In this document: in pieces, positions 6,054 to 27,935 of the stretch
Layout: each line of letters opens with the position of its first letter
Numbering within the stretch: position 1 is the stretch's first letter
Translations under genes and position numbers: made by a program
Source of the DNA: Psychrobacter sp. Choline-02u-9
GTDB lineage: Bacteria; Pseudomonadota; Gammaproteobacteria; Pseudomonadales; Moraxellaceae
Direction of reading: 5' to 3'
Length of the DNA stretch: 64,000 nt
NCBI RefSeq assembly: GCF_002836505.1
Contig: NZ_PJBF01000057.1
Location: 1-64,000 of the forward strand
Notes under the pieces: model-generated
The model's input: only the letters and a program-made list of their open reading frames with translations
What the model was told of the DNA's origin: nothing
Database searches by the model: none

Positions 6054-6083
6054 AATGGCAGTGTCCTTCCTCTAGAGAGCGCA

Positions 6084-7055: not shown

Positions 7056-7071
7056 CCCAAGGATTTCTAAT

Positions 7072-9079: not shown

Positions 9080-9086
9080 CTAAAAT

Positions 9087-9956: not shown

Positions 9957-9981
9957 TTGCATTATCTAATGAGGTATCTAT

Positions 9982-10329: not shown

Positions 10330-10375
10330 TATACAGATCAAGAAATTTATAACATTTTAAAATTTGGAGCTAATT

Positions 10376-10660: not shown

Positions 10661-10731
10661 TATTTAGCCCCTTAGAACTAGTTACGCGTATCGGAGATAA
10701 AGCAGGCTCTATAGGTGCACTTGTTTCGGCA

Positions 10732-11079
10732 ATGGGATGCGCCATGTGTTTTCCCGCGATAGCTAGTCTTGGTGCGGCAATTGGGATGGGATTTCTTAGT
10801 CAGTGGGAAGGGGTATTTATCAATACGTTGTTACCACTGTTTGCAGTATTAGCGCTGGCAATGAATATCTTAGGCTGGTTTAGCCATCGTCAATGGCACC
10901 GTAGTTTTATCGGTTCAATTGGCCCCATTTTGGTTTTACTCTCTTTATACCCTTGGTTCCAGTACGGGTGGAGTTCATACGTTACTTATACGGGGCTAGG
11001 ACTAATGGTTGCTGTATCAATTTGGGACATGGTTTCTCCTGCGAATAAACGCTGTGATGATGAAACTTGTACCGCTTAA
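10732..11079 (+). CDS. merC: MerC mercury transporter, start codon unclear
   Basis: An inner-membrane Hg(II) uptake protein. The conserved MGCAMCFPAIASLGAAIGMGFLSQ (Cys pair in helix 1), GWFSHRQWHRS and WDMVSPANKRC blocks match MerC. Family members start about 20 residues earlier with a segment like LVTRIGDKAGSIGALVSA. That segment is present here in frame from about 10678, but no ATG, GTG or TTG lies between the in-frame stop at 10654-10656 and the ATG at 10732. The codon at the expected start is TTA (10672-10674). Either a rare start is used, or the protein begins at 10732 and lacks part of helix 1. The rest is intact. Confidence 0.8.
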   Translation: MGCAMCFPAIASLGAAIGMGFLSQWEGVFINTLLPLFAVLALAMNILGWFSHRQWHRSFIGSIGPILVLLSLYPWFQYGWSSYVTYTGLGLMVAVSIWDMVSPANKRCDDETCTA

Positions 11080-11096
11080 CTTTTTAAGAGGAATAA

Positions 11097-12539
<1,443 letters not shown>

Positions 12540-12569
12540 TCATTTAACGGTAATGTACTTACAGAAATG

Positions 12570-12587
12570 TTAATGGAGTGCCATTAA
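12570..12587 (+). terminator. Hairpin after merA
   Basis: TTAATGG-AGTG-CCATTAA, a perfect 7-bp stem 30 bp after the merA stop. The T-run behind it is weak, so termination is only likely, not clear. Confidence 0.45.
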
Positions 12588-12593
12588 TAGCTG

Positions 12594-12776
12594 TTATTTC
12601 AAATAATTTTCTAGCGGTTTTTTCTCAAAATCTTCAGGATACATAGTAATAAAATTCTTCATTTCATTTCTGAATGTGTCTGTATCCCGCTTACCCTCGC
12701 CTGACAAACGATGGTAATTATTATAGTCCGCTTCAAATTTCTTTGAGCGCACGATAGGAGGCTGCGCAAAATTCAT
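12594..12776 (-). CDS. Small hypothetical protein
   Basis: A 60-codon frame with a hydrophilic, natural-looking composition (MNFAQPPIVRSKKFEADYNNYHR...YPEDFEKKPLENYLK) and no recognised domain. The ribosome-binding site is poor. A second short frame with a good AAGGA and a GTG start lies just upstream (12798-12899, 33 residues). The two could be parts of one broken gene or two tiny genes. Kept at low confidence. Confidence 0.3.
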   Translation of the reverse strand: MNFAQPPIVRSKKFEADYNNYHRLSGEGKRDTDTFRNEMKNFITMYPEDFEKKPLENYLK

Positions 12777-13144
12777 CCCAGTAGTGCTATGACATTTTTA
12801 GAGTGTATCGACTATATAAGGGTAAGACTTTTTAACGCTGTCTCTTGTTTTTTTTCTAAGGCTGTGAATTTTTTCAATAGTTGGCTGAGTCTGTGACACT
12901 GTATTTTCCTTTTGTTATTATCAATAAAGAATTTATGGATTATTCAATTTCTCTATAATAATGGCTCTACGCAGAGCTTTTAAGTATTGAGTTTTAAGAC
13001 CTAAAATGAGTGAGTACCTATACCAGTCATACATTACCTTCCAGTTCACATTTTATAAACATACTCAAGTATAAAAAGTATTTTTCCGTATAGAGTGAAT
13101 ACGACGCTAGTTCATTTTGTTTGTGATAATCGGCATCAATGTGC
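12777..13144. other. Spacer between the mer block and lspA
   Basis: AT-rich, with a 33-codon GTG-started frame on the minus strand (12798-12899) as its only coding-like content. No IS end, tRNA or clear terminator was seen. Confidence 0.3.
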
Positions 13145-13852
13145 TTATTTATTACGCTTACTTTCTAAAAATATCATGTCAATTATAATCAATGCGACAC
13201 CGACACAGACACCTATATCTGCAACATTGAAAAGAGGATAATTCCAGACATCAGCATAATGCACATGGATAAAGTCAACCACTTTACCAATTCTTAAACG
13301 ATCGATTAAGTTGCCAATCGCACCACCAAGCATTAAGGCCAACCCCATAGATAATAGCTTGGCTGCACGTGGCGCTTTGATTAAATAAACCGTTAAAAAG
13401 ATAGCCATTACAAAAGCTAAGCCTGAGAAAAACCATTTCTGCCAACCGCCAGCGTTGGCTAAAAAGCTAAATGCTGCCCCATAGTTATAAGCGAGTGTCC
13501 AGTTGAGAAATGGTTCAATGACCGGTACGGGGTCATTGAACGCTAATGTGGTTTGGGCCAACCACTTAGTCCATTGATCAAGTATTAATACCATTATCGC
13601 CAACAAATACCAGATAAAAGCGCGACTGCCATTGGCAACCATTTTTGGCATTTTGTCCAACTTATCTTTAGGTGTTATTGAGTTGCCTGAAGTCACGTAC
13701 ATAGCTTTAGGCGTATGATTTATGGTTTTAGAGTCAATCGATTGATGAGTACTACTCACAGCTATAGGTACCTTCTTGTCAGCAATATTAGTACTAGCCG
13801 ATTCAACGCTATTCAATTTAGTACTATCTAATCTGTCGGTAGATTCAGTCAT
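13145..13852 (-). CDS. lspA: Lipoprotein signal peptidase (signal peptidase II)
   Basis: A 235-residue inner-membrane aspartyl protease that cleaves signal peptides of prolipoproteins. The core (about residues 76-230) has four or five hydrophobic helices. Conserved blocks are DQWTKWLA, NYGAAFSFL, GGAIGNLIDRL (catalytic Asp) and FNVADIGVCVG (second catalytic Asp). The first about 75 residues are a polar, Ser/Thr/Lys-rich extension; AAGGA before the ATG at 13852 supports its translation. lspA usually follows ileS, which is absent here, so the gene is displaced or an extra copy. LspA paralogs occur in lead/cadmium resistance clusters (PbrC), so either a cargo or a housekeeping role is possible. 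Confidence 0.9.
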   Translation of the reverse strand: MTESTDRLDSTKLNSVESASTNIADKKVPIAVSSTHQSIDSKTINHTPKAMYVTSGNSITPKDKLDKMPKMVANGSRAFIWYLLAIMVLILDQWTKWLAQTTLAFNDPVPVIEPFLNWTLAYNYGAAFSFLANAGGWQKWFFSGLAFVMAIFLTVYLIKAPRAAKLLSMGLALMLGGAIGNLIDRLRIGKVVDFIHVHYADVWNYPLFNVADIGVCVGVALIIIDMIFLESKRNK

Positions 13853-13991
13853 AGTTGTTTCCTTTATCTATGTTTATACAATGAACAATGTTAAACGTAT
13901 ATGTTTTTGGTATACGATTATTAATCGCGCCACTTTCATAAACGGCTCCACTTACCGCTCTGGTATTATGAAACTTACGGTAATAATTTTT

Positions 13992-14699
13992 GGGGCTGTC
14001 CTAGATAACTAGTTCAAACCCTGTTTAACCCATTGTTTTAATTGTAGTAATTGCGACTTTGGGTCACTGTGATTAAAACGCCACTCACATTCCTTTAAAT
14101 AGAGGTGAAAATGTTCTTTTGGAACTCCGTTAAACTTACGTAGATGCCGTTTAGCTTGGTTCCAAAAGTTCTCTATACCATTAATGTGATTCTTGTCATT
14201 AACAAAGGTTTTGGAGTGGTTGATACGATAATGAGTAAACTCACTGACATCTAATGCGTTATAGCTTTTAAATGAGTCAGTATAAACAATGCTATCAGGC
14301 TTCACTTTTTCTCTTATAATGGGGATCAAAGTATCTGCTTTAGCATTGGGTATAATACAAGCGTAGACCTTGCCATTACGCTTTAATAGACCAAACACGG
14401 GCACTTTGCTACCAGCACCTCGCCCTCGCTTGCCTTTACGAGTGCCATCAAAGTATGATTCGTCTACTTCGATTTCGCCCTCAAATAGACCAGGGTCTTG
14501 ACTATTCTCGTAAATAAGCAGTCTTAGCCTATGAAAGTAATAACTGGCTGTGGTTTTATTAACACCGACTAGGCTTGCTGCTGTTCTCGCGGTAGAACCG
14601 GCAACAAATAGCTCGATGAGTCTGTTTTGTTTATACCAACTTAGTTTACTCTTTCTCATAGTGCTATCCTAAATAATTTTACTTATCTAGGACAGCCCC
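13992..14699 (-). mobile_element. IS1595-family element, IS1016-like (708 bp)
   Basis: Terminal inverted repeats GGGGCTGTCCTAGATAA (13992-14008) and TTATCTAGGACAGCCCC (14683-14699) bracket one transposase gene. The small size and the ends fit the IS1016 subgroup. The 8 bp on the two sides (TAATTTTT and TTACTTGA) are not alike, so there is no target duplication. The right flank begins in the middle of an IS982 copy and the left flank is unrelated. This implies a deletion starting at the left end after insertion into IS982. Confidence 0.88.
14009..14659 (-). CDS. IS1595-family (IS1016-like) transposase
   Basis: A 216-residue transposase. An N-terminal HTH-like region (TARTAASLVGVNKTTASYYFHRLR) precedes the ISXO2-type DDE/DDN-like domain: EGEIEVDESYFDGTRKGKRGRG with the first Asp, VYTDSFKSYNAL with the second, and HINGIENFWNQAKRHLRKFNG with the terminal Asn/Glu. 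The gene is full length and appears intact. Confidence 0.9.
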   Translation of the reverse strand: MRKSKLSWYKQNRLIELFVAGSTARTAASLVGVNKTTASYYFHRLRLLIYENSQDPGLFEGEIEVDESYFDGTRKGKRGRGAGSKVPVFGLLKRNGKVYACIIPNAKADTLIPIIREKVKPDSIVYTDSFKSYNALDVSEFTHYRINHSKTFVNDKNHINGIENFWNQAKRHLRKFNGVPKEHFHLYLKECEWRFNHSDPKSQLLQLKQWVKQGLN

Positions 14700-14962
14700 T
14701 TACTTGAGCCTATGGATGAGGTACTACTCAATCATCGCTCTTTGGTTGAAACGGTGTTTGGGGAGCTTAAAAACTTGTGCCAAATCGAACACTCACGCCA
14801 TCGTAGTGTCACGGGGTTTATCACAAACTTGCTGTCAGGTTTAATTGCTTATTGCTGGTTTCCCTATAAACCCACCATCAAAAATATGCCTCAGCAGGGA
14901 CAGGTAGCAACATTGTAAATAGTGTCAATGAGTTACAATGTGGCTTATCCCGAACTGGGGTT
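14700..14962 (+). pseudogene. IS982 right-end remnant
   Basis: The last about 263 bp of an IS982 copy, beginning exactly where the IS1016-like element ends. It encodes the last about 70 transposase residues (MDEVLLNHRSLVETVFGELK...), one residue different from the complete copy at 17409-18290 (V for A), and ends with the inverted repeat CTTATCCCGAACTGGGGTT. The left three quarters are missing. Confidence 0.88.
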
Positions 14963-15031
14963 GTAAATAGACAAGTCCATACAGACAGTGAATTGGTCAA
15001 TTCGAATTTTGGTAATAATAGGTAGCCCTTC

Positions 15032-17203
15032 ATGTCCCTTAAGAGCGCAGAAAAGTCTCCGTCATTAACGCAAAATAAATCGTCGAAAAAATCTTATCTG
15101 TTGGCGTTCGCTTTCAGCGCGGGCTCATTATTGACAGGGCTAGGAGCTACTGGGCTGACGGTTGCGCCAGTGGCATCGCAAGCGGCAGGATTGGGCGATT
15201 TATTTAGCAGTGATAAAAGCGCGACCCAACCGAAATTTTTGCCCGTTAACGAAGCGTTTCAAGTTAGCAGTAGCAGCAAACCGACCAATAATGGCACGCG
15301 CTTAGCCATTAACTTTGACATTACGCCTGAGCACTATGTTTATAGAGGCCAAATTAAGCTAACGTTACCTGCTGGCGTGAGCGCTGCACCTTTTACCTTT
15401 AGCCAAAAGCCAGTCTCCATTGATGATCCAACCTTTGGGCAAGTATTGGTCTTTGACCAAGCCAATATGGTTGCTAGCACTATATTGAGTAGTAGTAATG
15501 GTAAGGTGATAAATAATGCCGCCGTGACGATAGGTTGGCAAGGCTGTGCCAAAGCGGGTCTATGCTATCCACCGGAGAAAATAAAAACCACAGTCAATAT
15601 TGCTGCTGCGTCACAATCGGCAGCCAATAGCTCAAGTAGCACTGCTACAGATTCTGCGAGCAATAATAGCAATGCAGAAACTGCGCAAGCCTCTACAGAG
15701 GCGACAGTTACCAATAATATTGCTACAGAGCAAACTACGCCAGATGACGAGGTGATTGATTATGCCTTGTTAGATGACGAAGCGTTAGATACAGAGCTTG
15801 GTGCGACCAATACCATCTCTGGTGCCGATGAAGAAGCTGTAGGCGATAATGTTACAAGTGAAGCAGCGAACAATGACGCTGTCATAAATAATGCTGCTGC
15901 AACAAACAATACCGTTGTTGGCGATAATGCGATTGATAGCGACCCTTTTGGCTTAGCCTCGCATCCGTGGTTGGCATTGGTGTTATTATTTTTGGCAGGG
16001 TTGGGCTTAGCATTGACGCCGTGCGTGTTACCGATGCTACCGATTGTTGCCAATATCGTCGCGCGTGAAGACAATCCAACGGTAAAACGCGGTGTTATTT
16101 TAACGACCAGCTACGCTATTGGTGTTGCTATCGCTTATGGTATTTTAGGTGCGGTCATTGCTATATTTGGTGAATCGTTAGGCATTATCGGTTGGCTACA
16201 AAACCCGATTATACTAATTGCCTTTGCCATCGTTTTTGTCTTATTAGCCCTTTATATGTTGGGCGTATTTAGCATTCGTCTGCCAAGATTCATCAGTAGT
16301 AAAATGCAGGGTCTAAGCCAAGCGGGGGATAGCAAGCTTGGTAGTACGGGCGGCAGTTTAATTGCGGGATTCTTATCGGCGCTCGTGGTATCGCCTTGTG
16401 TTTCGGCACCCTTATTTGGGGCGCTGCTTGCTGTATCAACGATTGGAAGTCCATTACTTGGCTTTGCGGCTTTATTTATGCTCGGTTTTGGTTTATCAGC
16501 GCCGCTTATTTTAATCGGCGCGACCCAAGGTAAAATCATGCCAAAAGCGGGTGAGTGGATGAACTGGGTCAAGCAGGGCTTTGCTTTGTTGCTTTTTGCC
16601 GTGGCATTGTTATTAATTGAACGCGTCTTTATCTCGCCTGTGATGCTGATGGTTTGGGCGCTGTGGTTTATGGTCGTGGCGATGTGGGCGTGGAGCTGGC
16701 TAGGCAAAGGTCGGATGCTGACCCAAGCGCTAGGCTTAATCGCTGGTATTTGGGCGACGTGTTTAATCGTCGGCGCCGCATTGGGCAATGACGACAGCTT
16801 GCATCCGCTTGCCTCCCTAACTGCGGTTCCGGTGCTGCAGACAACTGCTGGTCAACCAGCCACCAGTAATGCAACCGATAAGACGGTCACGACGCTGGCT
16901 GAGTTAGATGCCATTGTCGCCGCCAATCCTAAAGTGCTGGTCGATGTCACCGCCGAATGGTGTATTGCATGCCGGACTATGGAGAAAAACTTATTTCATA
17001 ATCGCCCTGCGCAAATGCAAGATTGGCAATTGGTCAGACTTGATATCACGGAGACTACGGCTGATTCAAAAGCAATCTTAGCGCGTTATAAACTATTTGG
17101 TCCGCCAGCATTGCTGTATTATCAAGACGGGCAATTGGTCAATCAGCAAGTGGGTGAAATCGGGCGCGCAGCGTTTGAGCAAACCTTAACCGCGCTAAAT
17201 TAA
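15032..17203 (+). CDS. dsbD: DsbD thiol:disulfide interchange protein
   Basis: A 723-residue inner-membrane protein that carries electrons from cytoplasmic thioredoxin to periplasmic DsbC/CcmG-type proteins. After a long signal region come three parts. The N-terminal domain has WQGCAKAGLCYPP (Cys about 171 and 177). The eight-helix part has LTPCVLPMLP (about 331) and VVSPCVSAPL (about 455). The C-terminal thioredoxin domain has EWCIACR (about 644 and 647). Residues about 190-300 form an Ala/Asn/Thr-rich, acidic low-complexity linker, longer than in E. coli. The gene lies between an IS982 remnant and a complete IS982 in opposite orientation, so it may have moved with them. AGGTAG precedes the ATG. 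Confidence 0.93.
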   Translation: MSLKSAEKSPSLTQNKSSKKSYLLAFAFSAGSLLTGLGATGLTVAPVASQAAGLGDLFSSDKSATQPKFLPVNEAFQVSSSSKPTNNGTRLAINFDITPEHYVYRGQIKLTLPAGVSAAPFTFSQKPVSIDDPTFGQVLVFDQANMVASTILSSSNGKVINNAAVTIGWQGCAKAGLCYPPEKIKTTVNIAAASQSAANSSSSTATDSASNNSNAETAQASTEATVTNNIATEQTTPDDEVIDYALLDDEALDTELGATNTISGADEEAVGDNVTSEAANNDAVINNAAATNNTVVGDNAIDSDPFGLASHPWLALVLLFLAGLGLALTPCVLPMLPIVANIVAREDNPTVKRGVILTTSYAIGVAIAYGILGAVIAIFGESLGIIGWLQNPIILIAFAIVFVLLALYMLGVFSIRLPRFISSKMQGLSQAGDSKLGSTGGSLIAGFLSALVVSPCVSAPLFGALLAVSTIGSPLLGFAALFMLGFGLSAPLILIGATQGKIMPKAGEWMNWVKQGFALLLFAVALLLIERVFISPVMLMVWALWFMVVAMWAWSWLGKGRMLTQALGLIAGIWATCLIVGAALGNDDSLHPLASLTAVPVLQTTAGQPATSNATDKTVTTLAELDAIVAANPKVLVDVTAEWCIACRTMEKNLFHNRPAQMQDWQLVRLDITETTADSKAILARYKLFGPPALLYYQDGQLVNQQVGEIGRAAFEQTLTALN

Positions 17204-17251
17204 TCGTTTAAATGTAGATAAATTCCACATCATTTCTACCCATTAAAAAGC

Positions 17252-17285
17252 CAACGTCCTTTGATAATAGGACGTTGTCTTTTTC
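17252..17285 (+). terminator. Rho-independent terminator of dsbD
   Basis: CAACGTCCT and AGGACGTTG form a perfect 9-bp stem with an 8-nt loop, followed by TCTTTTTC. It lies 48 bp after the dsbD stop. Confidence 0.85.
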
Positions 17286-17364
17286 AATCTTACTAAATAG
17301 CCTTTTTAATATAGACGCTAAATCCTTGGTTTAACGTTATTTATTACTATTCATTTAACTACTT

Positions 17365-18392
17365 AACCCCAGTTCGGGATAAGCCACATTGTAACTCATT
17401 GATACTATTTACAATGTGGCTACCTGTCCCTGCTGAGGCATGTTTTTGATGGTGGGCTTATAGGGAAACCAGCAATAAGCAATTAAACCTGACAGCAAGT
17501 TTGTGATAAACCCCGTGACACTACGATGGCGTGAGTGTTCGATTTGGCACAAGTTTTTAAGCTCCCCAAACACCGTTTCAACCAAAGAGCGATGATTGAG
17601 TAGTGCCTCATCCATAGGCTCAAGTAATTGGGGTTTCATATTACGCCGAAGTTTGGTTATCAACGTGGTATCATTGTGTTTTGTGAGCCACTCGTTTAGG
17701 GCTTTACTGATATAGCCTCTATCCCCAAACACCTTGCCAAACACAGGCGTTGCCATATCCTTAACAGGCACTCTGTCATCCGTATTACCCGCAGTGACTT
17801 TAACAGATACAAGCTCGCCCTTATGATTGATAATGGCATGCAGCTTAAAGCCGTAAAACCAGCCCATACTACCTTTACCTCTTTGCGCCATACTCTCAAA
17901 GACTTTGTGACGGTAGATACGCTTGTTATGACAAACTGCTATCTTGGTTGAATCAATATAGCTGATACCCGTACAGTCGCCCATCATGCTTTGCAAGTAG
18001 CTGCACAGTGGTATGATACTGCGCGGTATAAGCTCTATAAATCGCGAGTAGCTCGGCAGATTTGGAAACTCCCGTTTCATCATGCCAAGCATGTGATGGT
18101 AGTAAAACGCCTTAAACTGTCGATAACGTAATTGATGAAACAGTATCAAGATGGTCATAATCTCTGCTACACTTATCTGGCATGCTCTTAACCTTTGGTG
18201 TCCCGTTGCGATTAAATGAGCGTCAAACTCAGGTTTGAATTGCTGATAAAAGTCGTCAATATGGCAGTATAGTTCGGTTAGGTTGTCCATGTAAGAAGTC
18301 CTTGTTGTGAAGTTTGTCTTGGTAAACTCACTTTAGCAACTTCGGACTTCTTTTTTTATCTTTTTTTTGAGCCCTTATCCCGAACTGGGGTT
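17365..18392 (-). mobile_element. Complete IS982-family element
   Basis: Inverted repeats AACCCCAGTTCGGGATAAG (17365-17383) and CTTATCCCGAACTGGGGTT (18374-18392) enclose one intact transposase. The length is about 1.03 kb, normal for the family. No convincing target duplication is visible (ACTTA on the left, ATTTA on the right). Together with the remnant at 14700-14962 it brackets dsbD. Its right end sits only 70 bp before the start of the CDF transporter. Confidence 0.9.
17409..18290 (-). CDS. IS982-family transposase
   Basis: A 293-residue DDE transposase. Visible blocks: ISYIDSTKIAVCHNKR (first Asp), GWFYGFKLHAIINHKGELV, VFGDRGYIS (second Asp) and HRSLVETVFGELKNLCQIEHSRHRS (Glu), matching IS982. 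Full length and uninterrupted, so probably active. Confidence 0.93.
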   Translation of the reverse strand: MDNLTELYCHIDDFYQQFKPEFDAHLIATGHQRLRACQISVAEIMTILILFHQLRYRQFKAFYYHHMLGMMKREFPNLPSYSRFIELIPRSIIPLCSYLQSMMGDCTGISYIDSTKIAVCHNKRIYRHKVFESMAQRGKGSMGWFYGFKLHAIINHKGELVSVKVTAGNTDDRVPVKDMATPVFGKVFGDRGYISKALNEWLTKHNDTTLITKLRRNMKPQLLEPMDEALLNHRSLVETVFGELKNLCQIEHSRHRSVTGFITNLLSGLIAYCWFPYKPTIKNMPQQGQVATL

Positions 18393-18462
18393 ATTTATCA
18401 ATTTCTCAGCCTGTTTTTTTTCAGCCTACTTTTTGAACCACCACCCGGATATAAATGTAACT

Positions 18463-19296
18463 ATGAATAAAACAACTTTTAAAATATCGAAGATGGACTG
18501 CCCTTCGGAGGAAAACCTAATCCGAATGAAATTAGAGGGCCACTCGAATATTGAACATCTTGAGTTCGACATTCCTAACCGTCAATTAACTGTGTTTCAT
18601 CATGACAATATAGAAGGGATAGAGACTGCTATTCATGACCTAAAATTAGGAGACACCCTACTCTCGACCGAAACCATTGACCCCTCTGATCCCAACAATA
18701 ATTTTAAAATTGATGCTGACTCTAGTCACAAAAAAGATGCTGAGCAAAGAAAGCTACTATGGATAGTGCTGGTCATTAACTTTGCTTTCTTTATTATTGA
18801 AATGAGCACGGGACTGATTTCTCGTTCGATGGGGTTGGTCGCCGACAGCTTAGATATGTTAGCAGATAGCTTCGTGTACGGAATTAGCTTATTTGCGGTC
18901 GGTGGAACGGTCATTAAGAAAAAACGGATTGCTAGAATTGCCGGATATTTTCAAATTACGCTAGCGATTCTTGGTTTTTTAGAAGTACTAAGACGTTTCT
19001 TTGGCAATGAGCAGTTACCTGACTTTTCTACCATGATAGTCATATCGATTCTTGCGCTAATTGCAAACTTGATTTGCCTCTATTTACTACAAAAATCGAA
19101 AAGCAAAGAAGAAGAAGCCCATATGCAAGCCAGTATGATTTTCACTTCAAACGATGTGATTATCAATTTAGGGGTAATTGTTGCAGGGATTTTGGTTAAT
19201 TGGTTACACTCTAGTACGCCTGATTTGATTATTGGTAGCATCGTATTTGCTTTAGTTATTCAGGGCGCCTTTAGAATATTGAAGTTGAGTAAGTAG
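18463..19296 (+). CDS. HMA-domain cation diffusion facilitator
   Basis: A 277-residue metal exporter. Residues 1-65 form an HMA-like domain (TFKISKMDCPSEENLIRMKL, one cysteine instead of the usual CxxC). A CDF-type membrane part follows from about 95, with NFAFFIIEMSTGLISRSMGLVADSLDMLADS (metal-site DS-D-AD) and FTSNDVIINLGVIVAG. The frame is open upstream into the IS982 end, but the ATG at 18463 gives the proper HMA start. Proteins of this type occur with lspA and MerR/CadR-type regulators in zinc/cadmium modules of Acinetobacter. Here IS982 may have replaced the promoter. The metal is not determined. Confidence 0.8.
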   Translation: MNKTTFKISKMDCPSEENLIRMKLEGHSNIEHLEFDIPNRQLTVFHHDNIEGIETAIHDLKLGDTLLSTETIDPSDPNNNFKIDADSSHKKDAEQRKLLWIVLVINFAFFIIEMSTGLISRSMGLVADSLDMLADSFVYGISLFAVGGTVIKKKRIARIAGYFQITLAILGFLEVLRRFFGNEQLPDFSTMIVISILALIANLICLYLLQKSKSKEEEAHMQASMIFTSNDVIINLGVIVAGILVNWLHSSTPDLIIGSIVFALVIQGAFRILKLSK

Positions 19297-19468
19297 CTTA
19301 ATTAAACCGCTAAGTGTAAAGTAACTGGGTTTGAAGCAAATAAACATCATAAGGATATGAGACCTCAAGCAATGATTGAACAAACTTTAAATCTAGTCAC
19401 CACCAAAGACCATCAGCAAGTTGCCGTTTGGCGAATAATAGATGATGAAGTCTTTGATAAGAATCTGG

Positions 19469-19536
19469 GAGACCTTCCTAAATTTTGTGTAAGTATTTAA
19501 TCTAAACGTCAGTTACACAGAATCTGGGATGGTCTC
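19469..19536. repeat. 68-bp mini-element with IS256-like terminal inverted repeats
   Basis: Two 24-bp ends (19469-19492 and 19513-19536) are inverted copies with 4 mismatches, both starting GAGACC and running inward to TGTGTAA, with 20 nt between. Such ends (…TGTGTAA) are typical of IS256-family elements, so this looks like an extreme internal deletion or a MITE. No target duplication is seen. Confidence 0.5.
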
Positions 19537-19682
19537 TTCAAGTCCTCACTAGCGCACCGATCATAGATAGAATATCTATGGTAAGTACATCATGAAGTAC
19601 ACTGTGGCTATCTCAGCAAGTTGAAACCTTAATATCATTAGCTCACAGCCAAAGATTCAAGTCCTCACTAGGGAACCGCGCA
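19537..19682. repeat. Direct repeats of the AAGTCCTCACTAG motif, copies 2 and 3
   Basis: TTCAAGTCCTCACTAG occurs at 19537-19552 and again at 19656-19671, 119 bp apart. The similarity continues into CGCACCG and GGAACCG. Copy 1 lies in inverted orientation at 2851-2863. The first copy begins directly at the end of the mini-element. Confidence 0.6.
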
Positions 19683-19683
19683 T

Positions 19684-19712
19684 TCTGCGCATAAAGCTGC
19701 ATTATGGTAAAT
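19684..19712 (+). other. dif/pdif-like XerC-XerD site candidate
   Basis: TCTGCGCATAA (19684-19694), 7-nt spacer AGCTGCA, TTATGGTAAAT (19702-19712). The arms agree with E. coli dif (GGTGCGCATAA and TTATGTTAAAT) at 9 of 11 and 10 of 11 positions. The spacer is one longer than the usual 6, which weakens the case. It lies 14 bp after the third AAGTCCTCACTAG repeat. Confidence 0.4.
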
Positions 19713-19925
19713 GGTTTTAGATAGAATGATTCGGTTTCATTGGATCCATTGGGGCATAGCCTGTTGATAAGTTATTAAGACAATTAGTTGTTACGAACAG
19801 GTTTGTACAATTGAGCCTTGAAACTTTATAATGCTCAATGAAATCATGAGGTAAAATGTGTTGTGATCACGGGCAATAAGAAATTACCTCACGAGAAAAG
19901 TATACAGTCCAATTAAGGTTATTGA

Positions 19926-20777
19926 ATGAAACAATATCTAGATTTATGTCAACGTATAGTTGATGAGGGTGTATGGGTCGAGAATGAACGGACTGGAAAA
20001 CGCTGCTTAACCGTTATTAATGCTGATTTAAACTACAATGTAGGAGCTAATGAGTTTCCCTTAGTAACTACTCGAAAGAGTTATTGGAAAGCAGCTATCG
20101 CAGAATTATTAGGGTATCTACGTGGTTATGATAGCGCAGCTCAGTTTCGAGCTATTGGATGTAATACATGGAACGCTAATGCCAATGAAAATGAAGCTTG
20201 GTTAGCTAATCCTTATCGTAAAGGTGAGGATGATATGGGCCGAGTATATGGTGTACAGGGCCGCAGGTGGCGTAATTCAGTAGGAGAGGAGTTTGACCAG
20301 CTTCGTAAGATTTATGATAACTTGCGGAACGGTATTGATGATCGAGGTGAAATCCTAACTTTCTATAATCCAGGTGAGTTTCATATGGGATGTTTACGTC
20401 CTTGTATGCATACTCATACATTTTCGTTGTTAGGTGGCAAGCTTTATTTGACTTCATCACAACGTTCCTGTGATGTGCCATTAGGTCAAAATTTCAATCA
20501 AGTCCAGGTTTTTACTTTATTGGCTTTAATGGCTCAAATTACGGGGCATGAGGCTGGAAAAGCTTATCACAAGATTGTAAATGCACATATATATGAAGAC
20601 CAATTAGAGTTAATGCGTGATGTGCAATTAAAACGCGAACCGTATCCAGCCCCTAAACTTCACATTAACCCTGAAATTAAGTCTCTCGAAGATATTGAGA
20701 CATGGGTAACATTGGACGATTTTGAAGTGGAAGGGTATCAGTATCATGAGTCTATCGCGTATCCATTCTCAGTTTGA
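19926..20777 (+). CDS. thyA: Thymidylate synthase, complete island-borne copy
   Basis: A 283-residue enzyme making dTMP from dUMP with methylene-tetrahydrofolate. The catalytic cysteine is Cys160 ([10 protein letters not shown]), followed by the phosphate-binding QRS (179-181) and the Asn191 (QNFN) that marks dUMP rather than dCMP use. It ends YPFSV. The sequence type ([32 protein letters not shown]) is the long form known from Vibrio, Pseudoalteromonas and Shewanella. It differs strongly from the resident ThyA remnant at 27345-27935. It sits beside the recombinase operon, convergent with it, and probably replaces the broken resident gene. AAGGTT precedes the ATG. Confidence 0.93.
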
Positions 20778-20948
20778 TACAAATATAAATTAAAAGTTAA
20801 GAAAGATGATAAATTTCTGTTAGGCATAAAGTATTAATATATGTGATTTATGCTATAAGGTATATATTTGTTAGCTAAGCTCTTGCTAGCTTTTAAGTAC
20901 AAGGAAATTAAGTTTATACTTTTTATAGCATAGGTAGTTTTCGATAGA

Positions 20949-21461
20949 TTAGTGCATCAGCTGGTTCGGTGTTGCATCTTTTAAAGCTAACATTTGTCTC
21001 AGTTTTTTAATCTCCTGTCTAGCTTCTAATAACGACCTTTTATCTGTATCAGATTGTGTTTTATAATAATCTCGTGACTCTTTCATTTTTTGTAACCGTT
21101 TATCTGAGTGTTGAGTGACTCTTTTTATATCTTGATATTCATTAAACCAGTAGATAACCTCATTTTGTGCTTGAATCATTTTTGCTTCAAGCGCATTCTT
21201 AACATCAGCGTTATCTATAGCTTTTTTTTCTTTACGCGATTTCTCTTCAGCTTTTCTGATATCTTTGATCTGATTTAGCTTTTGGACAGGCCAACCACGG
21301 TTTGTAATAGTATTTCGATGAATACCAGTCATCTTCGAAAGTTGCGCTATAGTGGGTTTTAGTTTTTTATTATTTTCAAGATCTATTAGGGCAATATTTA
21401 GAGCAGAAGTTATTGCTTCATAGTCGTCATTATTTTTTTGATCATAAGCTTCATTACTCAT
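20949..21461 (-). CDS. ginD: GinD-like small HTH/coiled-coil recombination protein
   Basis: A 170-residue last gene of the recombinase operon; its ATG overlaps the ginC stop by 4 bp. Residues about 30-60 hold an HTH-like segment (LKPTIAQLSKMTGIHRNTITNRGWPVQKLNQI). Residues about 65-160 form a long, charged coiled coil (EEKSRKEKK...ARQEIKKLRQML). It resembles TnpC of Tn554-type elements and GinD of GInt islands, which are needed for recombination next to the three recombinases but have no catalytic motif. A DNA-binding accessory role is inferred. Family recall is from layout as much as sequence. Confidence 0.65.
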   Translation of the reverse strand: MSNEAYDQKNNDDYEAITSALNIALIDLENNKKLKPTIAQLSKMTGIHRNTITNRGWPVQKLNQIKDIRKAEEKSRKEKKAIDNADVKNALEAKMIQAQNEVIYWFNEYQDIKRVTQHSDKRLQKMKESRDYYKTQSDTDKRSLLEARQEIKKLRQMLALKDATPNQLMH

Positions 21462-23566
21462 AGTTCGATTGCCTCACCAAGATTTTCCAATACCATTTTG
21501 GCCTCGTTCATTGCTGATAGAATTTGCTCTCGATTGTCTGAATATTCTGGTTTATTGAGGTTGGTTTTATTTAACATGTAAACTTCACGCCATTTAGGAG
21601 CATGCTTAGTAGTTACAACGGCTTGTTTGCATCGAGCTGGGTTACAACGCAGTGAACCAATACATGGTAGGCTTGAGTCATACTCTTCTGCTCTACCACC
21701 ATAGCAAAGCCCTTGTCCCATATAGACCATGGCAACCCCTTGATCTACCATAGCCTCATAAATCTCATCCTCTGTGTATCCTTCAGCCATATATCCACTA
21801 AACGTCTTGATCAGACCTTTTTTATGCTCACTCGCTTTACCACCATAATATGTACCATTTGGATTATGGGCAGTTTTAATAGCATCTAATTCAGCTGCTC
21901 GGCGCAGTGATTTCGTATCACCTTTTCGGTTGCCGTCTTTTGACAGCATCTCACCTATATCACCGTAGCCTAACGTAACTGACGAGGTGGCGCCAGTAGA
22001 TGTGTACTTAGAGATGCTCTCTACAAAATGTTTCAATTGAAACGATATAAGAGGCAATCCAACTTCAGCCTTAAACAATTGATATGTTAATGTGTGTCTT
22101 AACATATATGGATTGAATTTTAGTTCTTTAGCAACTTTTTCGCCTAAGAGTTGGCTAATAAAGTTATTCATTTGATACACGATACCAGTACTAGTCATTG
22201 ACTGGGGGGAGTTATCAGGTTTAACAGTATCTACATTAGAAATTAAGTAGGGCGACGCCTTAATTTTTGAGATATACGAAGCTGCTAATACTGCATCCTT
22301 AACAATTGGTATAGCTACCCATCTGTCGTCAAACAAACCTGTACTAACTTCATCTTTATGCTTTTTGACCGTACTTTCAATCAGCCAGACGGAGTCACTT
22401 TGAATTAAGCACGAACAATCCTGAACTCTTATTTCTGATAGTTCAGATGGTCTCATACCTGTATATTGACCCACTAAATACGCGCAGGCATACGCTACGA
22501 GGTTAAAGTATTCTCTAAGATTATCTAACTTGTAACCACGTTTTTTCAATGCGTTACGTAAAGTTCGTCCACCCATGACACTAGAGTCTTTTTTGAGCAT
22601 CCAATCATAGGGTTCAATTATGTTTGTAATGAAACTTGAAGGATAGCCTTTAGTTCCTAATCTCATAGCAATATAAGCATTTAAAATTTCGTGGGTTACT
22701 CCTTCTTCGTTTGCCCATGAAACGTGGTTGCTTGTATTAAATCTTTCTAAGGAGTTAGGATCTGATATCTTTGCTGAAGCTCCTGTAGCGTTTAAAAAGT
22801 CCACTATGATAAAGGAAGCCATTTTCGAGAGAGATTCAAATACCAGATCTGGCAGTACTTGTTCTTTTTTCGAAGTATTAGTATTAGCAAGTTTCTTCCA
22901 TTTCAGGCTATTTAACTCTACATAAGCGATAGGTTTTTCAAATACATACTTGACAGAAGCCGGGCTGCGTAGATATTTGAAAAATTTATCTAGCTCCACA
23001 CCTTTTACGCGATCATAGTTTTCAGCAGCTTTGGAATACAGTTCGGGTGTTATATCGGAGAGTGTTCTGATTTTTTCCTGAACAAACTCATAGCCTAGCT
23101 CATGAGATGCCTGTTTAAATATTTCATTAATAAACGTTAATCCATTTTCAAAAATTGTAATTAAAGAGTTTGCTTTTAAGACTTTTTTTGTTCGACTTTG
23201 GCCTTCCTTACTTTGAAGCTTGAAAATCGAATTGTTTAGCAAGGCCAACTCGAATATGATTTTTATTTCTATTAAAACGAATCTTGGGATATCTGTATAC
23301 TTTGAAAAACTAATGCGGAGCTTTGCGCCCTGAACATTTCGTGCAGCATTAGGATAGTCGTCATTAAAGTCCCAAAAGTCGTCAGAAAACTTTGATAATT
23401 TCGATACAGGTTTGTCCATAAGGTACGTCACATACTCTATGTCATCTGTGTAATTATTTTGAAGGTGCTTCTTCTTTTGAACTGTAGCATGGTCTAGAGC
23501 ATCTAAAACATATAAACGATGTTCTGCAAAACCTGTTAATACATTCAGCTTTTTTTCATAGTCCAT
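21458..23566 (-). CDS. ginC: GinC-like large tyrosine recombinase
   Basis: A 702-residue protein with an integrase fold in the middle: box I Arg in QYTGMRPSELSEI (about residue 369), box II YMLRHTLTY (about 490), then ISFQLKHF. The catalytic tyrosine is less obvious (KYTSTG or LGYGDI near 510-525). The C-terminal about 100 residues are Cys-rich (GLCYGGR, LPCIGSLRCNPARCKQAV), probably a zinc site. The start ATG overlaps the ginB stop by one base. It is the third of three co-directional recombinases and should act with ginA, ginB and ginD in island integration and excision. Confidence 0.8.
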   Translation of the reverse strand: MDYEKKLNVLTGFAEHRLYVLDALDHATVQKKKHLQNNYTDDIEYVTYLMDKPVSKLSKFSDDFWDFNDDYPNAARNVQGAKLRISFSKYTDIPRFVLIEIKIIFELALLNNSIFKLQSKEGQSRTKKVLKANSLITIFENGLTFINEIFKQASHELGYEFVQEKIRTLSDITPELYSKAAENYDRVKGVELDKFFKYLRSPASVKYVFEKPIAYVELNSLKWKKLANTNTSKKEQVLPDLVFESLSKMASFIIVDFLNATGASAKISDPNSLERFNTSNHVSWANEEGVTHEILNAYIAMRLGTKGYPSSFITNIIEPYDWMLKKDSSVMGGRTLRNALKKRGYKLDNLREYFNLVAYACAYLVGQYTGMRPSELSEIRVQDCSCLIQSDSVWLIESTVKKHKDEVSTGLFDDRWVAIPIVKDAVLAASYISKIKASPYLISNVDTVKPDNSPQSMTSTGIVYQMNNFISQLLGEKVAKELKFNPYMLRHTLTYQLFKAEVGLPLISFQLKHFVESISKYTSTGATSSVTLGYGDIGEMLSKDGNRKGDTKSLRRAAELDAIKTAHNPNGTYYGGKASEHKKGLIKTFSGYMAEGYTEDEIYEAMVDQGVAMVYMGQGLCYGGRAEEYDSSLPCIGSLRCNPARCKQAVVTTKHAPKWREVYMLNKTNLNKPEYSDNREQILSAMNEAKMVLENLGEAIEL

Positions 23567-26019
23567 TAGATTACTCCATCAACTAGTGTGGTCGTTTCAA
23601 TGTATTCTGCTAAACGCCGTCCATTTTCTAATTCTTCTAAGGAAAAATTAGATAGTTCAGGTTCTGTAATACCTTTTATCAGTTCTAAATTCTCTGAAAT
23701 AACATGCCCATAGGGTGTATCCATGACACGGGAGTGCTCTTTCAAAAGCGTATAGTCACGCTTCATTGCAAAAATTTCAGGCAGATTCTTAGCTGTAATA
23801 ATGACATTGTCACAACCCAAACATTTGTTATATTGTGAGCATGGAGTACCAGGTATGTAGGATGAAAGATTTTTTACAAAATCTGGTGGGTCAAAAATAT
23901 TTCTGCATTCAGCTAGAGGAGTATGAAAGGTTGTTACCAACTCATCATTTTTTTTGGACTCTATATCTTCTGGCACTTTCTCAACTTTTTTATCCAGAGT
24001 CGATTGATGTATCTCTTCTAATTCATCATTTATCTTCATTCTACTCATGGAGTTAAAATCTAGAGAATCTATATAACCGAGAGTTGTTTGGAGTGAGGAG
24101 TGACCCAACATGAGTTGAATTTCACGTACAGTTACGCCATTTCTAAGCATCTCACTAACAAATGTTGGTCTAAAGCGACTTATTGTAAGAGTTAGGGGAT
24201 CTCCTGCATCATTTTTTAAATTATATTTCTTAACAAACCTGGACAAACTAGCTCCCAATGCTTCTGTATTTTTTTCTTTGTTTCCTAATAGTGGAGATAC
24301 TCTGCCGTGCTTTTTTGTACTATTCGACTGATAGATAAACAACCTATCTTTAAAAGCATTATCTTCAATGTCTTGTCGAAAACTACTCGTCAATTGGACT
24401 AATTCTTCAAAAATAATTTTTATAGACTTAGCTTGAGATGACGTAAGCCATGTCAGTTCTGCATTAAAAAGATCGAGGTGGTATTCTTTATGACCATCAG
24501 ACCTTTCTTTCCAATATCTAAGACAAGGCCGCGATGTTGCCGGATGGGAATCTACATAATCGTTTATATCAAGAGAAAGTAAAGGATTTGCATTTAAACC
24601 AGTAATTTGAGCAAGCCTTAAAACGTAAGGCGTTAGTGTATCCATATTTATCATTGGGGTAATGCCCCAGTCGTTGTATACCTCTATCAAACCCTTATCT
24701 GAATCATTAATAATTCTTAAGAAAGACTTTTCAATAGGTGATTTAGCTGTATTATAATGAACTGGCTTACACATTAAGCGGTTTTCAAAGAGCCATCGCG
24801 CATTCTCTAGTGTCGAAAGGCCTCTAATGACTGAACCCTTTTCGTCCAAAGGATTGCTACCTAAACCCGTTTTCTTATAAGGTTTGAGGGCTTTTCTAGA
24901 TTCGCTCAATCCTTTTTCAATAGCCTCTAATATTCGAAGTCGCTCGTTCATTGTAAATGGCTTTTTAACATCTGTTTCTCTAGTTGTAGCAAATCCATTT
25001 ATATTGAAAAAGCTATATTCTATATCGCGTACTTGAGTCAGCCGATTCAATGTTATACGGACTGAACTCAAAACTGTATTTGCATGATGACTTGATATTT
25101 CTTTATTTATTACCTTGCCCTCTAAATATTTCCGATATCTAGATAATAGGTATTCATCAAAAGTTGTTACGATTCTAAAGGGTTTATTTCCATACAGTTT
25201 AGATAAGAACTCTATAAATGAACTACTCGCAACTCTATAATTACTCTTGCCTGATTTTGAAGAGACAGTTTTGCTACTACAAGCAAACAGTTGCTCAACC
25301 TGAATAAACGGTTCTAATTTTGAAGGAGGGAAGAAGTCATCAGCTGCATTTAGCTCTCTTGCTGCGAGTCTATGAAAACGCTCTATCTGACTTTCACTAT
25401 GATTTATTCTATTGACATTCGCTTCGCTTGTTCTTTCAGCAACGCTTTTATAATTTGGATCAATAATTCCAATTTTTTCTAAGTCTTTGTGAATGAATTC
25501 CCAAGCATCTTTAACAACATTAAATCTTAAGGATTCTTTTTTTATAGGTAGTTGTTCTGGAGACATTTTTCCTATCGAAATTTTGTTGCCGAAAATAGGT
25601 AAAGTGTGCTTTTCCTCTACAGTTAGCTTTCTGTACCAATTCAAAAGTTTTCTAGTGTTTTCGATGCCAGCCGCTTCGTAGCTTTCACTTGGTATTACTA
25701 GAATCCCTTCTTCAATCATCCTTCCAATTAAAGGAGTAGTAAGACCCCTATATTTTTGTGCAACAGAGTATGAGACACCTACAGCACTCTGAATATGCTT
25801 AACAGCTACACTGAAGCCCAAAGTATTATCCGCTTTACTAATTGGTATTTCCCATAGTGCTTCTTTATCTCCAGCTGTTTTCGATACCCATTCTATAACA
25901 GCTGCTTCGGCGTCTTTAATCGGTTGTTTTTCTTCAACGTTCTTAAAGTCTGCACCTAAAATTCCTGGCTCAGGAAAATCCTCATGAATCTCATCAATGG
26001 TTATTCCAATGTTTTTCAT
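23566..26019 (-). CDS. ginB: GinB-like large tyrosine recombinase
   Basis: An 817-residue tyrosine recombinase, far larger than phage integrases. The N-terminal about 400 residues carry a SAM-like DNA-binding part. The catalytic part has LAQITGLNANPLLSLD (about 476), TISRFRPTFVSEMLRNG (about 616), LMLGHSSLQTTLGYIDSLD with LGH (about 638) and the Tyr (about 648). In box I the usual Arg of TGLR is Asn, and box II has RFRPT instead of HxLRHT, so catalysis may be altered. Near the C-terminus PCSQYNKCLGC looks like a zinc knuckle, as in TnpB of Tn554. Its ATG overlaps the ginA stop by 4 bp. Confidence 0.8.
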   Translation of the reverse strand: MKNIGITIDEIHEDFPEPGILGADFKNVEEKQPIKDAEAAVIEWVSKTAGDKEALWEIPISKADNTLGFSVAVKHIQSAVGVSYSVAQKYRGLTTPLIGRMIEEGILVIPSESYEAAGIENTRKLLNWYRKLTVEEKHTLPIFGNKISIGKMSPEQLPIKKESLRFNVVKDAWEFIHKDLEKIGIIDPNYKSVAERTSEANVNRINHSESQIERFHRLAARELNAADDFFPPSKLEPFIQVEQLFACSSKTVSSKSGKSNYRVASSSFIEFLSKLYGNKPFRIVTTFDEYLLSRYRKYLEGKVINKEISSHHANTVLSSVRITLNRLTQVRDIEYSFFNINGFATTRETDVKKPFTMNERLRILEAIEKGLSESRKALKPYKKTGLGSNPLDEKGSVIRGLSTLENARWLFENRLMCKPVHYNTAKSPIEKSFLRIINDSDKGLIEVYNDWGITPMINMDTLTPYVLRLAQITGLNANPLLSLDINDYVDSHPATSRPCLRYWKERSDGHKEYHLDLFNAELTWLTSSQAKSIKIIFEELVQLTSSFRQDIEDNAFKDRLFIYQSNSTKKHGRVSPLLGNKEKNTEALGASLSRFVKKYNLKNDAGDPLTLTISRFRPTFVSEMLRNGVTVREIQLMLGHSSLQTTLGYIDSLDFNSMSRMKINDELEEIHQSTLDKKVEKVPEDIESKKNDELVTTFHTPLAECRNIFDPPDFVKNLSSYIPGTPCSQYNKCLGCDNVIITAKNLPEIFAMKRDYTLLKEHSRVMDTPYGHVISENLELIKGITEPELSNFSLEELENGRRLAEYIETTTLVDGVI

Positions 26020-27251
26020 TTGATGTCCTTAATGCCAATTCTTAACTGTGTCTGTTCAGATAAGCGCTTCATTTTCTCAGCTTTGGTTAATGTATCACCA
26101 TTCTCGTCACACATGCTCTTGTAGATATCTTGAGGGATATTAGTGTATATCTGTGTAGTACTAAGATGGTTGTGGCCTAAGCAATTCTGCACAATAGCAA
26201 GCCGATCTACATAGTTAGGCCCTAAATCCTTTGACTGTAGTATTGAATAAGCGTTGCCATGCCGTAGCTTGTGGGGAGAAATCAGTCGATTGAGTCGACC
26301 GTGTTTGATTGCGCGTTTACTTATACGTTCAAGTAGCTTACTGATTGAATTTGGGGTGTAAGGAGTGCCTTCAGCATTAAGGAACGCTGGTGTTTCAGAC
26401 GGCTTTAAATATTTACGAGCGTATTTTTTATACAAGGGAGATGCGTGGTATTTTTCCACACGTTTGATAGTTACTAAGCTAAGCAAAGTCCAGCGTGGCT
26501 TAATTTGATTACCACGGCCCTTACTTCCTTTAACTTTCAAAGATACATAGTCGGGATGAATAGGCAGGTCAGTATCGCGGGAAATATATTTTTCAGAATT
26601 AAGGCTAGTAATATCTTTAAAGTCTTGAAGAGTAACTCTAGGTAGTTCTGAACGACGTAAGCCAGAGTCGTATAAAAACTGGAGTAAAGCTCTTTCTCGT
26701 TCTGAATCAGTAAATTCAATCAATATGAAAAGGTCATCAAGTGTGCAAGAGCTAATCGGTGTGCGCTTTGGTGGTTTTGATAGCAAGCCATCGCTATATG
26801 GGTTATCTTGTCTAAGCTTATCACGGTCTTCTGTAGGGCTACAAAGGTATTCGATGAAGGCATGTATTGTCTCATCTCGACTTCTAACAGTAGATGAGTT
26901 CTTATGGTCTTCACGGATTAAAAATGTCAGGTATTCTTGAATTACGTATTTTGGAACTGTAATAAATACTTCATCAGATTCACTGTCATCATAATCTGGA
27001 CGACTACGAATATAACTTAAGAAGTAGCTTAGGTTTCTACCATAAGTAACTGCTGATTTATAAGAGATTATTTGATGTTTGGTTCGATACGACAAATACT
27101 CAGAAACAAGAGGAAGGATCTTGCCATCATCATCAAATACTCCAACACCATTCACTGTTACGGTTTTGTTCAATGATAAATTTGGAATCTCATTGAGTAA
27201 ACAAGACTTAGATAAATCTAACTTTGTATCAAAACAAACTTTAACATCCAT
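26016..27251 (-). CDS. ginA: GinA-like tyrosine recombinase
   Basis: A tyrosine site-specific recombinase of 411 residues from the ATG at 27251; a GTG at 27260 would add three. The catalytic set is complete (numbering from the GTG): Arg202 (DSGLRRSEL), His330 and Arg333 (SPHKLRH), His363 (NCLGHNHLS) and Tyr372 (TQIYTNI). An N-terminal SAM-like core-binding region spans about 45-150. It is the first gene of the operon and lies next to the island boundary, 94 bp from the cut in thyA, the usual place of an integrase gene beside its att site. A 9-bp inverted repeat directly upstream could be its operator or a binding site. Confidence 0.88.
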   Translation of the reverse strand: MDVKVCFDTKLDLSKSCLLNEIPNLSLNKTVTVNGVGVFDDDGKILPLVSEYLSYRTKHQIISYKSAVTYGRNLSYFLSYIRSRPDYDDSESDEVFITVPKYVIQEYLTFLIREDHKNSSTVRSRDETIHAFIEYLCSPTEDRDKLRQDNPYSDGLLSKPPKRTPISSCTLDDLFILIEFTDSERERALLQFLYDSGLRRSELPRVTLQDFKDITSLNSEKYISRDTDLPIHPDYVSLKVKGSKGRGNQIKPRWTLLSLVTIKRVEKYHASPLYKKYARKYLKPSETPAFLNAEGTPYTPNSISKLLERISKRAIKHGRLNRLISPHKLRHGNAYSILQSKDLGPNYVDRLAIVQNCLGHNHLSTTQIYTNIPQDIYKSMCDENGDTLTKAEKMKRLSEQTQLRIGIKDIK

Positions 27252-27265
27252 AATAATCACTATCT

Positions 27266-27291
27266 CAATACATAGACTAAGTTATGTATTG
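27266..27291. promoter_or_regulatory. Perfect 9-8-9 inverted repeat upstream of ginA
   Basis: CAATACATA (27266-27274), 8-nt spacer, TATGTATTG (27283-27291). Two 9-bp inverted arms around 8 bp is the classic form of a tyrosine recombinase core site. It could equally be a repressor operator over the ginA promoter. A related GTATTG-CATTAT occurs again at 27315-27329. Confidence 0.5.
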
Positions 27292-27324
27292 CATTATATA
27301 CGATCTATTACTCCGTATTGTGCA

Positions 27325-27350
27325 TTATTGTTATGGGGGTATAATAAAAA
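27325..27350. other. Candidate att core at the island-thyA joint
   Basis: TTATTGTTAT (27325-27334), GGGGGT, ATAATAAAAA (27341-27350): inverted arms with 8 of 10 matches around 6 bp, spanning the position (27344/27345) where ThyA similarity ends. The right arm uses thyA sequence (codons for Leu-Phe-Leu). The exact crossover point is inferred. Confidence 0.45.
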
Positions 27351-27935
27351 TAAGTCAGCCGAACGCTGATACAGCTGGCATGACAGCTTATTGTCTGCGA
27401 CAAAGAACTGAAATAACGTATGACATGGTGGTAGGGCTACTTGCTCTGCCTCACCTGGATTCCAGCCTGACACAATCAAGCGGCGCGAATTCGGATTGTT
27501 CTTTATCTGTTCAACGACTTGTGCGATTTGATCGACGCCATCAGCGTTATAACTGGCATCTTCATTTTTGGTCGCGCCGTAGTTACGCCATTGATGACCA
27601 TAGATAGGACCCAAATCACCAGCAGGTCTGTTGAAGCGTGCTGTCTGTTCTGCTGTCGCCCACTCATTCCAGATACGAACATTATTCTGTTGTAGATAAT
27701 CGACATGAGTGCTGCCACTTAAAAACCACAATAGCTCATAAGCGATAGATTTAAAGTGAACCTTTTTGGTTGTTAGCAGTGGAAATCCATCTGCTAAGTC
27801 AAAGCGTAGCTGTGCGCCGAAATGGCTAAGCGTACCAGTACCAGTACGATCGCCTTTTTCAGTGCCATTGTCGAGAACGTGGCGTAGTAAATCTAAATAG
27901 CCTTGCTCGTTATTACTTTGGGTGCCATTGATCAT
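27345..27935 (-). pseudogene. thyA: Resident thyA, 3' end cut off by the island
   Basis: The first 197 codons of the chromosomal thymidylate synthase ([36 protein letters not shown]...), including the catalytic Cys in [11 protein letters not shown] and the QRSAD phosphate-binding site. After QRSADLFL the family sequence should go on with GLPFN, but the frame runs 17 codons into island DNA ([11 protein letters not shown]...) and stops at 27294. The C-terminal third, with the dUMP-binding Asn and the closing C-terminus, is lost, so the product should be inactive. It lies downstream of lgt on the same strand, the common lgt-thyA order. Confidence 0.92.

Follow-up and report, generated by a model that had tools for sequence, protein, structure and literature searches.

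The usual view of mobile elements is that they keep away from essential genes or settle at harmless sites, and both thyA and nadE are established essential genes. How, then, can a lineage live with an element that sits in the middle of its thymidylate synthase gene? The question is raised by the window analysed here, a stretch of 64,000 nucleotides of Psychrobacter sp. Choline-02u-9 that makes up positions 1-64000 of a 93,894-nt contig (C71) in a draft assembly of 71 contigs. Our reading of the sequences, which we consider very probable, is that an island of the GInt type splits thyA at a fixed codon and survives through a thyA that travels with it, and that the carried enzyme follows the target.

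Resident thyA is cut at one codon

The features at the cut are:

27345-27935, minus strand: N-terminal part of resident thyA, 197 codons, cut after ...QRSADLFL, with the same codon cut in 31 loci
27314-27353, minus strand: left att junction and element end, TTTTTA followed by TTATACCCCCATAACAATAATGCACAATACG, which in inverted orientation imperfectly matches the right end of the island on contig C17 (L004, about 3806-3842)

On C71 the lgt gene lies upstream of resident thyA. The open reading frame at 27294-27935 (minus strand, 213 aa) is ThyA through residue 197 and is thereafter written in letters coded by the element. The C-terminal part of the gene, about 92 codons long, lies on contig C17 (L004 3811-4119) together with folA and uvrC, which follow it; C17 holds the other island end, with further island DNA preceding the thyA fragment. 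Comparison of the junctions indicates that the left and right ends have in common an imperfect core of about 6-9 nt, for example TTCCTA. When the genome was searched with PF00303, exactly three matches were obtained, namely the resident N-terminal part, the resident C-terminal part and a thyA carried by the island. The initial annotation had placed the cut after 197 codons at QRSADLFL, and this is borne out: because the identical codon is cut in 31 separately fetched loci (11 + 20), the cut is more than a chance event.

In many of the 31 left junctions the truncated ThyA frame continues into a short element-coded tail of similar sequence (..AQY....A; positions 27294-27345 in the window), a likeness that probably reflects a recombinase binding site in this DNA.

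Two rival explanations, namely that the resident halves still assemble into a working enzyme or that the split is an artefact of assembly, we regard as extremely improbable. Working halves would fit with the fact that each half is an open reading frame in the window genome, but the analogous halves of tmk contributed nothing in the experiments described in PMC10653934. An artefact is difficult to reconcile with the presence of the split in many assemblies, nine of which carry the two halves on a single contig, separated by 17-51 kb.

A GInt-like operon lies at one end of the island

Directly inside the cut are four genes on the minus strand:

26016-27260, minus strand: ginA, tyrosine recombinase, 414 aa from a GTG or 411 aa from the next ATG; Pfam Phage_integrase above the cut-off
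23566-26019, minus strand: ginB, tyrosine recombinase, 817 aa, overlapping ginA by 4 nt; Pfam Phage_integrase above the cut-off
21458-23566, minus strand: ginC, tyrosine-recombinase-like, 702 aa; 26.9 bits against a Pfam cut-off of 27.1
20949-21461, minus strand: ginD, small protein of 170 aa, matching neither Pfam nor NCBIfam

Throughout ginABCD (20949-27260) neighbouring genes overlap, the operon sits at one end of the island and cargo begins directly after ginD. GInts, as described by Bardaji et al. (2017; PMC5385486), have three genes of the tyrosine-recombinase type and a small fourth one (ginABCD) in a single operon at the island end, with cargo right after ginD, high specificity of insertion and flanking imperfect direct repeats of 10-17 nt. 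According to the same article the recombinases have RHRHY residues, the first Arg being missing from GinC. Matched against that description, the window island has the same operon make-up, end position, cargo after ginD and site specificity, its left and right ends sharing the imperfect core of about 6-9 nt given above, and the earlier assignment to the GInt type holds, as GInt-like, on the strength of the layout, the position at one end and the fixed site. The three overlapping tyrosine recombinases of 411, 817 and 702 residues were likewise correctly called, with GinC falling 0.2 bit under the Pfam cut-off. In GinA, residues R202, K247, H330, R333, H363 and Y372 are conserved in 33/33 aligned rows, the alignment comprising 33 of 38 rows after exclusion of five short or interrupted ones, and R372 of GinC is conserved in all 31 of its rows, an Arg that does not readily agree with the published account of GinC. 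The description of GinD as an HTH/coiled-coil protein was not confirmed: the window protein has no match in Pfam or NCBIfam, and the hints amount to a weak helix-turn-helix match, below the cut-off, in two of its homologues.

The island carries a second, complete thyA

Beyond ginD the window contains:

19926-20777, plus strand: carried complete thyA, 283 aa, NCBIfam NF002498 subtype, full Pfam match; convergent with ginD, 171 nt apart
19803-19832, plus strand: promoter-like sequence pattern TTGTAC-N18-TATAAT upstream of the carried thyA
1-19796, strand not assigned: probable island cargo, with mercury, cation-efflux, resolvase and transposase genes as read from translations

The observation of a complete and divergent thyA at the far side of the operon was correct, with an identity between carried and resident ThyA of 29% over 190 aa in the window genome. 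The promoter-like site, with a spacer of 17-18, is present at -123/-124 in all 11 Psychrobacter islands and in both of the relics described below; it was not found upstream of the carried thyA in the two Acinetobacter islands. The carried gene is under purifying selection, with dN/dS values of 0.02-0.07 in all 15 computable pairs (21 thyA pairs were tried, of which one was identical and five had saturated dS; several of the 15 have dS >1 and are rough).

The island extends left of 19926, probably to the start of the contig, and the presence of its far end on C17 implies that it continues past the left limit of C71. Further genes, including a response regulator/sensor kinase pair identified by reading, occupy about 3.8 kb of C17, and we regard them as cargo. 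If all of C71:1-27345 belongs to it, the island would measure at least about 31 kb, with an assembly gap inside. Genes for mercury resistance (MerR-, MerT-, MerP- and MerA-like, from translations) are seen at 9339-12539 as probable cargo, and transposase-like open reading frames, IS5-like and IS1595-like by eye, lie on the cargo side at 17409-18290 and 14009-14659.

The same arrangement recurs in Psychrobacter

Our genome samples contain one genome per species. A search of 105 Psychrobacter genomes with GinA gave a strong match (72-100% identity) in 11; nearly all 105 also show a weak similarity, chiefly over the C-terminal part of GinA, which we read as chromosomal Xer-type recombinases. A split thyA, with its N-terminal part beside ginA, and a 283-aa thyA are found together in all 11 GinA genomes. 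Among the other 94 genomes a split thyA is seen in none and the 283-aa type in two, the relics G076 and G101. The left junction codon is identical in 11/11. The C-terminal part of thyA was found in 10 of the 11, and the right junction agrees in these 10; it was not detected in G029, where the contig ends inside the island. Psychrobacter islands with both thyA parts on one contig are about 28-51 kb long (G027, G099, G025 and G015).

Genomes free of gin, other than the relics, have one full-length thyA match, with a few exceptions: G049 has a frameshifted thyA, G016, G089 and G103 give an extra weak match, and the search gave no match in G062, which is 83% complete. G057, also gin-free, has two full-length thyA genes, the second being an open reading frame of 290 aa that is 76% like the resident N-terminal part (L094, G057:C5:60000-76000).

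An intact resident thyA elsewhere in the genome, a finding by which the initial annotation would have been refuted, was not found in any of the 16 gin-bearing genomes searched for it. The alternative thymidylate synthase gene thyX (PF02511) was found in none of 18 genomes, these 16 and the two relic genomes. The proposal that the island targets an essential gene and supplies its replacement is therefore supported at the level of sequence, by the insertion itself and by the location of the only intact thyA on the island.

Relics keep the carried gene

In G076 and G101 a 283-aa thyA lies between lgt and folA in the orientation that it has in the island, with the promoter-like site kept. Neither a strong GinA or GinC match nor a piece of resident thyA was found in these two genomes. 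The relic flanks retain 326 bp like a resolvase gene of the window cargo and 88 bp like the right end of the island. Since their ThyAs are 99.3% identical, we count the two relics as probably a single event.

Gin loci in other genera and at other sites

Searching 348 genomes of the family with GinC returned the 11 Psychrobacter loci and two from Acinetobacter (A. variabilis NIPH 2171 and A. puyangensis ANC 4466), both of which have the same thyA cut, the gin operon and a 283-aa thyA. An order-level sample of 390 genomes added three further loci (G551, G641 and G675), and a class-level sample of 369 genomes returned the window's own genome and none that was new. GinA-like matches occur in 20 of 328 sampled genomes of the genus of G675, which we take to be Pseudomonas because its elements closely match a copy on a P. 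putida plasmid, and in 4 of 124 genomes of the genus of G641. A scan of IMG/VR for GinA relatives gave none, and two GinA queries against a plasmid collection matched nothing but the P. putida megaplasmid.

The 38 gin loci thus assembled fall into five groups by site: the thyA site of the window (site 1) has 31, a second thyA site has one, nadE has three, a DUF808 gene has two and a plasmid open reading frame has one. Those at site 1 come from Psychrobacter (11), Acinetobacter (2), the genus taken as Pseudomonas (15) and the genus of G641 (3); the C-terminal part of thyA was searched in 16 of these 31 genomes, the remaining 15 being examined on the N-terminal side. The second thyA site, in G1431, is used in the opposite orientation by an element whose GinA is 29% identical, and is placed solely by the last ~57 ThyA residues beside ginA. 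The two elements inserted in DUF808 genes (G1347, L190, and G1187, L191) have distant gin operons and cut the gene after the same motif, KGAIRTDFIL; the identity of the gene is given by a Pfam match for G1187 and by reading for G1347.

The plasmid copy (L127, NZ_CP061724.1 63386-88546) lies in another open reading frame of the 603-kb P. putida plasmid and carries thyA. The link between carrying thyA and residing in thyA is therefore not absolute. This copy may represent an insertion at a secondary site and a route of transfer. We observed in addition that its element end sequence resembles that of the thyA-inserted islands.

The carried thyA mostly lies beside ginD and is of two subtypes

The initial annotation had asked whether the same pairing of gin operon and thyA recurs and always sits in thyA. 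All 31 site-1 loci come with a complete second thyA, as do all 32 thyA-inserted elements taken together, and likewise the plasmid copy, making 33 carriers. In 32 of these the carried gene adjoins ginD, although transposase genes intervene in one Acinetobacter case; in G094 it is on another contig and its position is a presumed one. With respect to ginD it is on the same strand in 20 cases and convergent in 12, and the two frames overlap by 1-4 nt in 16 of the 33 carriers, all of them same-strand.

Two subtypes of carried thyA, of 283 and 277 aa and 30% identical to each other, occupy the same slot. The 283-aa type is found in Psychrobacter, Acinetobacter and the genus of G641 and belongs to NF002498 in all three proteins tested, and the 277-aa type is found in the genus of G675 and on the plasmid, with NF002497 as the best match in both tested. 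An intact resident ThyA of Psychrobacter, the one tested, likewise has NF002497 as its best match. Carried and resident proteins are 28-30% identical in the Psychrobacter, Acinetobacter and G641 pairs, 52% in G675 and 75% in G551.

These counts bear on the view that thyA is ordinary, random cargo. Varied cargo is indeed known in GInts (PMC5385486), yet thyA accompanies 32/32 thyA-inserted elements against 0/5 of those in other chromosomal genes (in the fetched DNA), a difference with a Fisher p of 2e-6, as calculated with a test that overstates independence for elements that are relatives. The chance that the gene is random cargo appears to us to be negligible. We accordingly rejected random cargo, a faulty assembly and a joining of the resident halves into a working enzyme, on the basis of the 32/32 association, of the occurrence of the split in many assemblies and of the tmk analogy.

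Elements in nadE carry a NAD synthetase

Three elements (G1139, G1396 and G1168) are inserted in nadE. The resident nadE is split in 3/3, with the N-terminal part adjoining ginA and the C-terminal part at the far end, 33 kb away in G1396, 42 kb away in G1139 and on another contig in G1168. All three have a complete NAD synthetase of 565-607 aa with an amidase domain, the frame of which begins about 0.15-0.3 kb inside the far end. This carried enzyme is of the glutamine-dependent type and belongs to NF010588 in both proteins tested, and the intact short nadE of one control genome belongs to NF001979. In four control genomes no full-length nadE match had an open frame above 449 aa; in G1347 there are two, both short. 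The DNA fetched around gin of the nadE members, which extends 4.7 kb beyond ginD in one and 5.0 kb in another, showed no thyA; the stretch fetched for G1168 contains ginA and part of ginB, and neither ginC nor ginD was seen there.

In a GinA tree, rooted at the midpoint, the nadE elements cluster together with full support and fall among thyA-inserted elements; the tree contains long branches, including the rows for the second thyA site, DUF808, G551 and G1345, and joins between long branches may be false. Because the nadE group is nested among thyA members, it seems from the sequences that the target was switched within the family and that the replacement was switched alongside it.

Related operons at other sites and without thyA, which the initial annotation had named as evidence against its proposal, do exist: there are five in the fetched DNA, three in nadE and two in DUF808 genes. 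They do not refute the idea of replacement, since the nadE elements carry a NAD synthetase instead.

How the island may enter and persist

According to the model that we favour, GinA-D, that is three tyrosine recombinases and GinD, would recombine the island into one fixed codon of resident thyA and thereby split the gene, and the carried, divergent thymidylate synthase, provided that it is active and sufficient, would take over dTMP synthesis from the moment of entry. The island may still be mobile. Divergence at the att codons would lower self-targeting of the carried gene, which is plausible for the 283-aa type and less so for some of the 277-aa type, where some carried genes resemble the target at these codons. 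The replacement would follow the target, such that thyA-inserted elements carry thyA and nadE-inserted elements carry NAD synthetase.

This joint change of target and carried enzyme is also what argues against an alternative in which the carried thyA was acquired for some other benefit, such as antifolate tolerance or better dTMP supply, and covers the break incidentally. The 283-aa type of ThyA is frequent among phages, with matches in 864 of 50,697 phage records (E up to 1e-40) at up to 75% identity, many of them Vibrio or Salmonella phages, and thyA is thus often mobile for other reasons; the plasmid element, moreover, carries the gene while outside thyA. However, besides the joint change, the one slot holds two distant thyA subtypes, and we judge this explanation to be quite unlikely.

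The initial annotation went further and saw in the arrangement an addiction strategy, in which loss of the island other than by clean excision would be lethal for want of thymine. One part of that proposal stands: the only intact thymidylate synthase found is the island-borne copy, and from what is established about thyA a disruptive deletion would leave the cell needing thymine. On the other hand, clean excision should rebuild the target, and the relics have lost the recombinases and most of the cargo and have retained thyA. That addiction is the main point of the arrangement we therefore regard as possible, though doubtful. Since a clean excision would be expected to do no harm, and since thyA is what survives when the island decays, the arrangement would render thyA indispensable and not the whole island. 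A simpler view is that the carried gene allows a cell to survive insertion into a conserved essential gene, with retention as a by-product.

If replacement of this kind occurs as we propose, repeated invasion and decay would give bacterial lineages a way to exchange essential genes for versions that are distant or unrelated. It would provide a mechanism for essential-gene replacement of which the intermediate state, the island, and the end state, the relic, are both visible within one genus.

Comparison with known systems

Integrases of phages and ICEs can restore the end of their target, thus mending the damage to a conserved gene. Those elements rebuild the same gene with a homologous end, whereas the break is here left unrepaired and the function would pass to a different enzyme. 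The SEs described in PMC10214605 are, like the window island, multi-gene tyrosine-recombinase islands of Gammaproteobacteria; compared by description, they differ in that Tfp/Srap fall into clusters apart from GinC/GinD in that article.

The sites reported for GInts are gene ends (ssb, nrdA, ABC transporter) or intergenic, and in P. aeruginosa PA_D16 GInts adjoin the end of a ribonucleotide reductase gene that is duplicated (PMC5385486). The account given there, in contrast to what is seen in the window island, does not present GInts as bearing a substitute for the target gene. The terms 'thyA', 'thymidylate' and 'nadE' are absent, by term search, from the main text of PMC5385486 and of PMC10214605, and a literature search covering open-licence articles and abstract openings showed, among the papers listed, none with thyA or nadE as target or cargo of a GInt.

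The closest likeness is to the tmk islands. In KT2440 it was demonstrated experimentally that an island-borne dNMPK (PP_1964) is the essential thymidylate kinase, tmk being split by the island (Wirth et al., 2023; PMC10653934), a case that its authors call a first-case example. As reported there, such islands occur in Pseudomonas, Acinetobacter, Psychrobacter and Halomonas with variable cargo and constant recombinases, the replacement is non-orthologous and phage-like, and some strains keep only dNMPK at the tmk locus. Both systems thus have a split essential gene, an island-borne replacement that is the only intact enzyme found, and relics with the replacement alone; compared by description they differ in target and enzyme, tmk with dNMPK there and thyA or nadE with ThyA or NAD synthetase here. 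By analogy, the thyA and nadE islands look like the same strategy applied to two further essential genes, in which a change of target accompanied by a change of replacement can be seen. We think it likely that there is, among GInt-type elements, a general class that usurps essential genes, with recombinases directed at conserved codons within essential metabolic genes and with a slot for a divergent, often phage-like replacement that is exchanged together with the target; its members would be thyA with either thyA subtype, nadE with glutamine-dependent NadE and perhaps tmk with dNMPK. With a family that inserts in the middle of essential genes, and in which target and enzyme vary together, the single tmk case would become a testable rule with predictive value for other GInts.
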